A stretch of DNA of 64,000 bases. Source: Anas platyrhynchos (lineage: Eukaryota > Chordata > Aves > Anseriformes > Anatidae). This document shows positions 42,213 to 49,486 of the stretch, one piece after another (position 1 is the stretch's first letter; each line of letters opens with the position of its first letter). The stretch covers positions 124,001 through 188,000 of the forward strand of contig NC_092600.1 of assembly GCF_047663525.1 (NCBI RefSeq). Reading direction: 5' to 3'. Both the position numbers and the translations under genes were made by a program. The notes under the pieces were generated by a model that was not told the origin of the DNA, did not search any database, and saw only the letters and a list, made by a program, of their open reading frames with translations.

Positions 42213-42384
42213 CTACTGGTCAGCAGGAATCTCTCTGTCTGCATCCAGTTTACTCGTCTCTCCTGGGGAAGGGGTACGTGGTGCAGAGAGGGAAACAGAA
42301 GGGATCCCATGAGCTACAATCCCTTCCACTACTGGTGGTTCTGGTAGCCCGGGGGTGGCTACTCCCACTACTCCTGGAGGAAAC
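42213..42384 (-). CDS. CtBP-like exon 9, C-terminal tail and stop
   Basis: It encodes [20 protein letters not shown], then a flexible Pro/Ser-rich tail with APRTPSPGE and the end [10 protein letters not shown], followed by TAG. The TPSP site parallels the phosphorylated SPG site of CtBP1. No clear psi-K-x-E SUMO site like that near K428 of CtBP1 is seen. The terminus lacks the DQL PDZ-binding end of CtBP1. Confidence 0.93.
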
Positions 42385-45300
42385 CTGAAACCAACAGAAA
42401 CATTAATTACATGCTTGGTCCAACAGTTTTGCAAGGGAAAAGGAGCTGTGCCCTTAGGCACCTACTGAATACAAATCCCTTTTTCTAGCAGAATTGCTCC
42501 AAGATATAGAATATAGGAAAAGTCTCCAGAGCTGAAGAGTTACAGTTACATCCTATTACCAAATGACACCTGTTCTCAGACAGACAGAGACAGTTTCAGG
42601 TCATGTGCTAAGCATTTGGAAGGCAAGTGCAAACTTTGTTTGTGTATCCTGTGGGAAACAGCATGAGGCACAGTATGAATATATCCTGAAGAGCTGGAAA
42701 TTCCCTCCCCATCAGCAGGAAGAGTACAAGCTACCAGCTATGCTTCACTGGGATTCAAGATAGAAAAGTAAGACTGTTTCCTTAGTTTAGCTAGGAAATG
42801 AGATTAAAAAAAAAATAGTAGAGACATACTTACGAATTGCTAATAAACCATTTACTTCCATTCTGCCTCCCCATGCCTTCTCAATAAATATATCTGAACC
42901 TATCCACAATCATTCTGCAAGCCTGTAACAGCCTGAAATACACCCTTATTTAGGCCACTGCCCAAATCTAACAGACAATGTCTTTTTGAGAGTCCTCATC
43001 TGAGCTACTGATAAGAACTGTGCTTTGTTTATACAGACATAGTGATATGTGCACCTTCTAAATATTAAGATCTAGTTGTCTTTTCAGGCACCCAGCAGGC
43101 TTTCTTATATCAAAAGATTTCTTGGGCAGGTCTTGCAAGGATTTGGAAAAAATAACCAGTATTCAGTTTGAACAAAAACATAACCAGGCAAATGCTAAAT
43201 CCTAGTATGGTTTCAGTAGTGCTGCAGTTAACTTTCTGGAAATTGCTCATTTACAGAGTATATAGGAACAGAAACACATCTGCTTGCAGGTACAAGTAGT
43301 TCTCAAACCCAAAGAGGAACGTTGGCCTATTTCAGCAGGAAAATCTGCTTGGAAGCAATAACCTACATATCTCACCTGTATGCTGCAGCTCCATTGAGTT
43401 CTGGGTGGACACTTGCAGGATCAATACTGGACCACTGTGCTGCTAACAGCAAATACTCCTTATTAACACAGTTCCTCAAAGCATCAGGTATGTGACCTGC
43501 AGGAGCACCAAGAATGACAGAAAACAGAACAGAACAGAAAAACGAGACAAATAGAAGGTGCTCATCCCTAGCAGTATTTACAAATGAAAGTAAAAAGGAA
43601 ACATTCGGTATTCTAATTCCACAGGATAACACTGGACAGGGGTGACTCCTCTGAACAACTGGTCTCTGAAGAACACATGAAACTGATCCTTCCTTCCCAC
43701 TTTTGTGATCTTGGGGAAATCACTGGCCATGTAAACTGCAATCACCAGGGCTCACCTTTCCCAGGAGACAACATGTGCTACTCCAGAAAGAGGTGTACAG
43801 AGTAACTGTCAAAAGCAATTACTGCAAAGGATTTAGAAGATGTAGTTTCAGTGAAACTCAGCAAGAATTTCAATGCCTTCCCAAGGAGGGAAAGTGCCAT
43901 TCCAGCATTAGCTACTACATTCTCAAAAGGCACAGGGACAATTACCAACTTACACTGCAGTTCCAGAAACCAGTTACTGAGTCTAAGAACAATCAGCAGT
44001 TCCAAATCCGTAATCCTTGCAGTGAACTAACAAAAGAATCCTAATCCAGCAGCAGCAGCAGATCAAACACAGTCTTCCTCATTACCTGTAATAGCTCTGC
44101 GGATCTCTTTAGCTGCATCTTCTCTGGACTCAATGGAAGCTTGCTCGCTGTACCAGGCAGTGTGTGGGGTGCAGATCACATTGGGTGCATCTTTTAAGGG
44201 CCCCTGAGCAAAGCTGTGGGGGGAAAAAAAAGTTATCTCCAGAAATGATAACTCCATTTGTCCTCTCAGGTATCAACATAACATAAACACGAAATAATCA
44301 TCTAGTGCTTGAGTAACATAACAGGCATGCAGGTGCAGTGATACCTGAAAGGCTCAGATTCATGTACATCCAATGCTGTTCCTCTGATTCTCCCCTCTTT
44401 CAAGGCTTGAGCTAAGGCTTTCTCATCAACCAGCCCTCCCCGGGCTGTGTTCACTAAGAAGCAGCCCTGGCGCATCTGAAAGAAGAAAAATATTAAGTGG
44501 GTTGATAAAGACTTCCCAGGGGAACAAAGTGAATCTTGGGAACTCTACTGAAAATGAACAGGAGCCTGCAGTGATTAGATGAGGCCCGGACGAACTAGGA
44601 GTGCTCTCACTGCAAAGCTAACCACAGGGGAAATGCCTGCAAGCAATGCTTGAGAAATTTGCTTTAAAAATGAACAAAGAAAACCACAATACAACAAGGG
44701 CAAAAGTGGAACTCTCAAATTTTGCACTCCATATTCATCCTACTAATTTAAAGAAGAGGACATGAATCAAGTATGCAGCTATACAAAACTGGACTATGAT
44801 GTCCAGATGTCTCTCATGAAAGCACTGAAAAGCATTCAGACTAGTGGAGTAGAGCCCGAGACTGGCTTTGCAGTGGGCTTAGGCAGAAAGACTTTGACAG
44901 AGCTGCGTGAAGAAGCTTACATAGTTCCATCCACACCAGATCTGACTCTAACCAGCACAACCAGTTATGCATTTTAAAGGTAATTTTAAATTATTTAATA
45001 ACATAAAACATTCTTAATAAGTGAAATTACTTGGTAAAAAGAGCCAATCATATTTTTCTCTTAACAAGAAATTCTATAAGCACAAAGCACAGGCACCCAG
45101 ATCCACATGCTCCCAGCCTCCGAAGGCAGCAGGAGGCACACAGCAGAGGCAGCAGGATTCACACGCTCTCAGCCTCTGTGAAAGCAGCAGTTTCTGTTTG
45201 CATTCATTTCCACAGTGCTCTGTGGGGGAAATCAAGCTCCTGCTGCACCTGTTTAATAGTGAAGTCATTGATGAGGTGATGGTTATGTTCATTCAGGCTG

Positions 45301-48300: not shown

Positions 48301-49486
48301 TTGAGATCCTTCCTTTCAGGCCACCTACCAGCTCAGACATTTCTCTGCTTCCTGAAGATGCCTCCTACTAAGCAATTCACAATCTTTTTACATAAAGATT
48401 TTTAAAGCACTTAGTTATAGACAGAAAAACACGTGCAGTGCTCTACTTCTCGTTCAGTTCTGATCACATCAGAACCCTAATGGTATCACCATACCTAATT
48501 CTGCAGCAGATTTGATGTCAACATTGTCATAGCCACTGCCAATACGCACAATGACCCTGAGGGCTTTGAATTTCTCCAGATCCTGACGAGACAGCGTAAT
48601 GGTGTGATACATCAGAGCTCCTACTGCCTCATTCAGTACCTACAACAAAAAGCAGTCCAAATCAATCTCTACCTTGTTACACAAAGAGACAGAGCTCAAT
48701 GTCCAAATGCTCGTATATTTTCTTCCCCACCTTTTCATGGATTTCCTGAGTTGACTGAGCGTCACAAAATGCCACTGTAGCAACATCCTTCAGGATGGGC
48801 ATCTCCACAGTGCAATCTCTTCCATCCAGGAGCGCAACCAGTGGCCGTGCTGGCATCGGGCCATTCACAAGAGGAGGCCGTATGCCTATTAAGAAAGTCA
48901 GCAGAAGCGATTGTATGAAATACAGCGTGTATGAAATGGAGCCCTCATCTGCTAGTCCAATAAATCACTAGTTCTTCTGGAATTCTACGGTTTTAACGAA
49001 GGGATTACTTAAAGCAAAAGAAATAAACAGGAAACCAACGAGGAAGTGAACCTGGGGGGGTGGGGGGGAAGCTCTGTCATTACTATACATTAAAGAAAAA
49101 AAAAAAAAGCCTGATAGAGAATAAGGTAACAGAGGAGACCTCACAAGCACGTATGTTTACTCTAGACTCCCAAAACCAAGAATGCAGTCCGTTCGGGCCT
49201 ACTGCCTCCTCGTGCCTCCCGTTCCCAGGCTCCTGCTCCGCTTCCTTTCGAGGCGTGCAGAGGAACCCGCGCACTGGCGGCGCCCCCGCGGTCCGCCCCC
49301 GCGAGGCGCTGCCTCCGCCTCAGCGGCGCGGAGCGTGCGGCTCCCGGCAGGGAGCGCCGCAGCCGGGCCCGGGGCCCCGCCGCACGAGGCCGCGCTGCCG
49401 CCGGGAGCCGGGGCCGGGGCCGCCCGCCCCGCCTCACCTTCGCAGATCCGGTCCAGCCGCTGCCGCTTCACTTTGTGCCGGTCCAT
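42213..49486 (-). CDS. CtBP-family transcriptional corepressor (CTBP1/CTBP2 paralogue), complete
   Basis: CtBP proteins are NAD(H)-dependent dehydrogenase-fold corepressors. They bind PXDLS motifs in transcription factors and recruit histone-modifying complexes in the nucleus. Nine exons were placed: 49438-49486, 48731-48885, 48495-48639, 46092-46298, 45249-45463, 44345-44475, 44086-44213, 43376-43496 and 42213-42384. All have GT-AG borders and phases join to 1,323 nt, or 440 residues plus stop, the usual family length. The NAD loop is G184-L185-G186-R187-V188-G189, and the catalytic residues are R269, E298 and H318, with W321 following. The N-terminus, [17 protein letters not shown], resembles CtBP2, while other positions resemble CtBP1 ([10 protein letters not shown]) or neither. 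The C-terminal tail is unlike both. It could be annotated as CTBP1- or CTBP2-like; I think it is a third paralogue. Confidence 0.95.
43376..43496 (-). CDS. CtBP-like exon 8
   Basis: It encodes [20 protein letters not shown], then [20 protein letters not shown] and a split arginine. It follows the CtBP pattern up to HPELNGA but diverges in the [10 protein letters not shown] part. Donor GTGAGA, leaving phase 2. Confidence 0.94.
44086..44213 (-). CDS. CtBP-like exon 7, catalytic His
   Basis: It encodes [20 protein letters not shown], then [20 protein letters not shown] and IT plus one base. H318 of CTPH and W321 are intact. Acceptor CCCACAG, donor GTAATG. Confidence 0.95.
44345..44475 (-). CDS. 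CtBP-like exon 6, catalytic Arg and Glu
   Basis: It encodes [40 protein letters not shown] and EPF, and leaves in phase 2. Catalytic R269 is in ARGG and E298 in HESEP. CFLVNTA has cysteine where human CtBPs have alanine, from memory. Confidence 0.95.
45249..45463 (-). CDS. CtBP-like exon 5, NAD-binding domain
   Basis: It encodes [60 protein letters not shown] and [11 protein letters not shown] before GTGCAG. The aspartate after IFY is the usual NAD-ribose ligand position. The exon enters in phase 1 and leaves in phase 0. Confidence 0.95.
46092..46298 (-). CDS. CtBP-like exon 4, start of NAD-binding domain
   Basis: It encodes [60 protein letters not shown] and [10 protein letters not shown]. 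The GXGXXG loop crosses the junction to the next exon. Phase 1-1, donor GTAAGT. Confidence 0.95.
48495..48639 (-). CDS. CtBP-like exon 3 (residues 69-117 part)
   Basis: It encodes [20 protein letters not shown], then [20 protein letters not shown] and DIKSAAEL plus one base before GTATGG. SRQD and SAAEL differ from the human paralogues as I recall them. Confidence 0.94.
48731..48885 (-). CDS. CtBP-like exon 2, substrate-binding domain start
   Basis: It encodes [20 protein letters not shown], then [20 protein letters not shown] and [12 protein letters not shown], ending before GTGGGG in phase 0. This segment forms part of the PXDLS-binding cleft of CtBPs and is nearly invariant. Confidence 0.95.

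Follow-up and report, generated by a model that had tools for sequence, protein, structure and literature searches.

A bird CtBP gene beside KDM3B, most probably the orthologue of CtBP1-like, a paralogue lost in mammals

The DNA analysed here, referred to as the window, is a stretch of 64,000 nucleotides from Anas platyrhynchos (C14:124001-188000; the genome, of 1.26 Gb, comprises 42 contigs, to which C-numbers refer throughout). Its minus strand carries a CtBP gene between 49486 and 42213, whose nine coding exons join into a single 440-residue frame with start and stop codons. All eight introns are of the GT...AG type, with phases 1, 0, 1, 1, 0, 2, 1 and 2. KDM3B follows downstream on that strand; 6.3 kb separate its first coding exon (35946) from the CtBP stop codon (42213). 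A first-pass annotation of the window had proposed both a complete nine-exon CtBP gene and its position 6 kb upstream of KDM3B, and both proposals are borne out. KDM3B is represented by 16 ordered tblastn pieces between 35946 and 2767, and its C-terminal part, outside the window at the left, by eight tblastn pieces on C14:104-124 kb. The queries for KDM3B and FAM53C were human sequences not taken from a database record, so that the KDM3B call rests on tblastn with such a query; Pfam found nothing in the four KDM3B open frames scanned. The features of the locus are as follows.

49201-50000, no strand: CpG island across the CtBP start codon, likely promoter (80% GC, CpG observed/expected 1.03, against 0.19 in the CtBP gene body)
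49438-49486, minus: CtBP1-like coding exon 1 (N-terminal basic motif)
48731-48885, minus: CtBP1-like coding exon 2
48495-48639, minus: CtBP1-like coding exon 3
46092-46298, minus: CtBP1-like coding exon 4 (ends in the NAD-binding loop)
45249-45463, minus: CtBP1-like coding exon 5
44345-44475, minus: CtBP1-like coding exon 6
44086-44213, minus: CtBP1-like coding exon 7 (His318, Trp321)
43376-43496, minus: CtBP1-like coding exon 8 (NCVNKEYL, where the C-terminal tail begins)
42213-42384, minus: CtBP1-like coding exon 9 and stop codon (tail end REIPADQ)
2767-35946, minus: KDM3B, N-terminal and middle coding exons (16 ordered tblastn pieces; C-terminal exons past the left edge)

The encoded protein has the core of a CtBP. 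Both halves of the 2-hydroxyacid dehydrogenase core are matched in Pfam (2-Hacid_dh_C, E 3e-53; 2-Hacid_dh, E 2e-26), and the top solved structures are those of CtBP1 (785 bits) and CtBP2 (744 bits). Residues G184, G186, G189, D207, R269, E298, H318 and W321 are all kept; in human numbering, the three glycines are those of the GxGxxG NAD loop, and R269, E298 and H318 are the catalytic set. Also kept are A55 and V69 at mutation sites of the PxDLS-binding cleft (CtBP2 numbering; sites from PMC1592084).

The C-terminal tail sets the protein apart from both CTBP1 and CTBP2. CtBP tails are about 100 residues long with conserved blocks, and the combination KEYL...PADQ is typical of the tail start and end of CtBP1-like and of CtBP1a, an extra copy in ray-finned fishes (PMC9907507). 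The tail of the window protein, 89 residues from NCVN with the PELNGA block present, begins NCVNKEYL and ends REIPADQ, agreeing with this pattern exactly. Tails of 11 of 12 CTBP2 rows in our alignment start KEFF instead, and 11 of 12 end in EQ. CTBP1 proteins end in DQL, whereas the window protein ends in ADQ without the final leucine and carries SKLD in place of the VKPE of tetrapod CTBP1 rows. Within the third clade described below, KEYL is found in all 21 rows, a DQ end in 19 and an exact PADQ end in 8; the rows that do not end in DQ (P0016 and P0017) are models with a different C-terminus. The first-pass annotation had ascribed to the protein a tail of its own.

It had also described a mixture of CtBP1 and CtBP2 states. 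We compared the protein at 49 diagnostic columns, in which five tetrapod CTBP1 rows share one residue and six tetrapod CTBP2 rows share another: its state is that of CTBP1 in 25, that of CTBP2 in 12 and neither in the remaining 12. With CTBP1 it has in common the core, the exon blocks and the VEGIV motif, but its exon 1 follows the CtBP2 pattern. The N-terminal motif concerned, HKVKR, occurs in 17 of the 21 third-clade rows (window protein included), 7 of 11 database CTBP2 rows and 1 of 10 database CTBP1 rows (turtle), and in both cyclostome CtBP rows as well. Hence the motif is probably ancestral, judging from its distribution, rather than part of a mixture.

Phylogenetic analysis places the window protein in a clade of its own kind. 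The tree comprised the window protein, 43 of 120 listed proteins and 3 of 118 newly listed ones (the insect outgroup), hand-picked for taxonomic spread. It separates a CTBP2 clade (support 98/91) and a CTBP1 group (support 90/84) from a third clade, supported at 96/86, whose 21 rows come from a ray, bony fishes, amphibians, lizards, a turtle and birds; no mammal row falls in it. In a second tree we added two rows from the window's own genome, a CTBP1 of six exons (e3-e8) and a CTBP2 of eight (e2-e9), and support for the third clade became 99/86. The neighbour of the window protein is a Mergus (merganser) protein, with 439 of 440 residues identical. Approximately unbiased (AU) tests reject joining the nine reptile and bird rows of the third clade either to three reptile and bird CTBP1 rows (97 log units worse, p 3e-44) or to four reptile and bird CTBP2 rows (158 log units worse, p 8e-8). 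The first reading of the DNA had anticipated a grouping outside both CTBP1 and CTBP2, and this is what the tree recovers.

These data also dispose of the idea that the gene is a recent bird- or reptile-specific duplicate of CTBP1, or a retrocopy of it. The excess of CTBP1 over CTBP2 states at the diagnostic columns is what such a copy would predict, but a retrocopy is ruled out by the eight introns, and a recent duplicate is contradicted by the ray, bony fish and amphibian members of the clade and by the AU test against CTBP1. Together with the separate CTBP1-type gene on C4, the tree, the AU tests and the introns refute this origin, to which we attach practically no probability.

Two further CtBP genes are present in the same genome, giving three and not two, so that neither outcome which the first-pass annotation had set as a refutation occurred. 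The gene at C4:72.99-73.01 Mb is placed with turtle CTBP1, to which it is 100% identical (rounded) across 313 columns. That at C6:37.92 Mb is placed with CTBP2 and is 100% identical (rounded) to a duck CTBP2 across 411 columns. On C4, six of the nine window exons (e3-e8) are matched as separate blocks 2.2-5.9 kb apart; on C6, eight of the nine (e2-e9) are matched in the same way, 0.34-1.9 kb apart. The three genes are therefore divided into the same exon blocks, as judged from match blocks and not from exact splice sites. A weak CtBP match was also seen on C8 (52% identity over 48 residues).

The presence of a separate CTBP2 bears directly on the database names, taken at face value, by which the window gene would simply be bird CTBP2. 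Third-clade rows from Mergus, pigeon, great tit and cormorant carry that name, and the single name displayed for the database cluster nearest to the window protein (221 member sequences) is likewise CTBP2. The CtBP2-type motif at the N-terminus of the window protein would agree with it. However, the clade and the tail of the window protein are both separate from those of CTBP2, the AU test excludes the join, and a published survey calls CtBP database names inaccurate in some cases (PMC9907507). We regard this identity as very improbable, and the C6 gene refutes it. A related idea, that early quail CtBP2 papers had used a gene of the window type, was dropped: the single substitution reported there falls within a putative signal, KxKRQR, and the window protein retains that signal.

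We conclude, with a probability of about 95%, that the window gene is a bird CtBP1-like, orthologous to the third CtBP paralogue, which is retained in most jawed vertebrates but was lost in mammals, and that it most likely encodes an NAD(H)-binding PxDLS corepressor. The paralogue has been known since 2023, when CtBP1, CtBP1-like and CtBP2 were reported to have arisen in a jawed-vertebrate ancestor, with loss of CtBP1-like in mammals alone (Raicu et al. 2023, Mol Biol Evol, PMC9907507). By the tail pattern, by the three-clade tree and by occurrence in non-mammal tetrapods, the window gene is the same, and we see no essential difference. The matches listed here agree with the published loss. 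NCVNKEYL was found in 39 of the best 120 of 1312 protein matches, none of them mammal-named and two unnamed; these rows are clusters whose other members are unnamed, and no mammal genome was searched. The present analysis adds the position between KDM3B and a GFRA-family gene, shows all three CtBP genes in a single bird genome and draws attention to the labelling problem. No report of linkage between CtBP1-like and KDM3B was found in the open-licence papers searched, and the words KDM3B, synteny and syntenic have no occurrence in the main text of PMC9907507.

Several points weigh against this conclusion. Eight of the nine KEYL-tail bird rows among the matches listed are named CTBP2, the chicken one being a 'C-terminal binding protein-like', and several fish rows of the third clade are named CTBP1. 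The AU tests were performed after the tree had been seen, though both alternatives had been named earlier. Finally, expression, NAD(H) binding, corepression and a mainly nuclear location are predicted for the window protein from its sequence.

How the third copy arose is less clear. The first-pass annotation had placed it in the two-round (2R) whole-genome duplication of early vertebrates, pointing to FAM53 genes beside CTBP1, CTBP2 and KDM3B. A genome-wide Pfam search for FAM53, for which 0 of 14 control genomes gave a signal, did find matches 0.8 Mb from CTBP1, at C4:72.22-72.23 Mb, and 0.11 Mb from CTBP2, at C6:37.81 Mb. TACC behaves similarly, with matches at C4:72.10, C6:36.80 and C23:0.59 Mb (nine matches, all above the cut-off; 2 of 14 control genomes gave a signal, none above the cut-off). 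Since both families lie near both CTBP1 and CTBP2, their loci on C4 and C6 resemble sister segments; membership of C14 is not shown by these two families.

Three observations count against a 2R origin. No FAM53 match on C14 is among those listed in the genome-wide search, where the best candidates alone were scored, and no TACC match on C14 is among those listed either. In addition, the branching order of CTBP1, CTBP2, CtBP1-like and the cyclostome genes is not settled: grouping the third clade with CTBP1 without the cyclostomes is not rejected by the AU test (p 0.34), nor is grouping it with CTBP2 (p 0.064). The lamprey and hagfish rows stand weakly beside the third clade (82/69; 87/66 in the second tree), and since their tails start KEFF and KDFF, not KEYL, we did not count them as members. 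With the human FAM53C query, there was no match in the window (E up to 1) or in the 30 kb past its right edge (E up to 0.01). FAM53C may have been lost, moved, missed or left out of the assembly.

The lack of C14 entries for either family among the matches listed, and the unsettled branching order, would agree with a local or segmental duplication, early in the history of jawed vertebrates, as the source of the third copy. On the other side stand the neighbours of the window gene. A GFRA-family (GDNF receptor alpha) gene lies upstream of it, with two plus-strand pieces around C14:190.8-192.7 kb (about 2812-4657 of L014, C14:188001-198000), and relatives of GFRA and KDM3 are found in the related human regions. 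Moreover, a goby protein model (P0026) fuses a FAM53 fragment to a CtBP with a KEYL tail, which suggests an old linkage to FAM53C. The fragment scores 44.7 bits against the human FAM53C query, 38.5 against the FAM53 on C4 and 31.6 against that on C6, a weak hint that FAM53C and CtBP1-like may be neighbours in fishes. We consider local duplication unlikely, while giving it some weight. A 2R origin fits the data and is plausible, without being demonstrated.

We take the human gene order to be GFRA3, CDC25C, FAM53C, KDM3B. On that order, the CtBP gene sits in the interval that holds CDC25C and FAM53C in mammals. The second GFRA piece is closer to the structure of GFRA2 (119 bits) than to that of GFRA3 (65 bits), though its position suggests GFRA3. 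Within the window, a candidate first exon of GFRA lies near 63166-63260, the sign of it being a signal-peptide-like MRLALLLGLLL stretch alone. Elsewhere, open frames at 6263-6712 (plus), 29917-30300 (minus) and 59890-60204 (minus) appear to resemble the end of ORF2 of a CR1-type retrotransposon, and a 241-residue open frame at L015:2673-3395 (plus) looks gag-like by eye, with no match in Pfam.

The residues kept in the window protein suggest how it might work. It would act as an NAD(H)-dependent corepressor, in dimers or tetramers, and would dock on PxDLS-type motifs of DNA-binding repressors. Residues 4-14 keep CtBP2 in the nucleus, an effect that one study ascribes mainly to acetylated lysine 10. 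CtBP1 relies on a C-terminal PDZ-binding end and on its sumoylation at K428 (PMC1592084). Two of the three CtBP2 lysines are kept in the window protein, where K5 and K7 match K8 and K10 and R3 takes the place of K6. CtBP1-like keeps the serine phosphorylated by HIPK2 and the sumoylated lysine (PMC9907507). Both residues are present in the window protein, with a SUMO motif around the lysine that is weaker by the consensus. Because two of the CtBP2-type N-terminal lysines are kept, the PDZ end of CtBP1 is lacking and the SUMO motif is weaker, we expect a mostly nuclear protein, which would be held there by the N-terminal lysine motif and not by the SUMO site and PDZ-binding end of CtBP1.

KDM3B is an H3K9 demethylase. 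With CtBP1-like and KDM3B arranged head to tail, the corepressor and the demethylase may share regulation, and the loss in mammals may have altered the control of KDM3B or moved nuclear-only CtBP work onto CTBP2; we hold this to be improbable. The position of CtBP1-like next to KDM3B and GFRA marks a place to seek a mammalian relic of the gene and to date its loss. As bird labels are mostly CTBP2, studies of bird CtBP2 could mix two genes. And since the third paralogue was kept outside mammals, mouse CtBP knockouts leave part of the jawed-vertebrate family uncovered.

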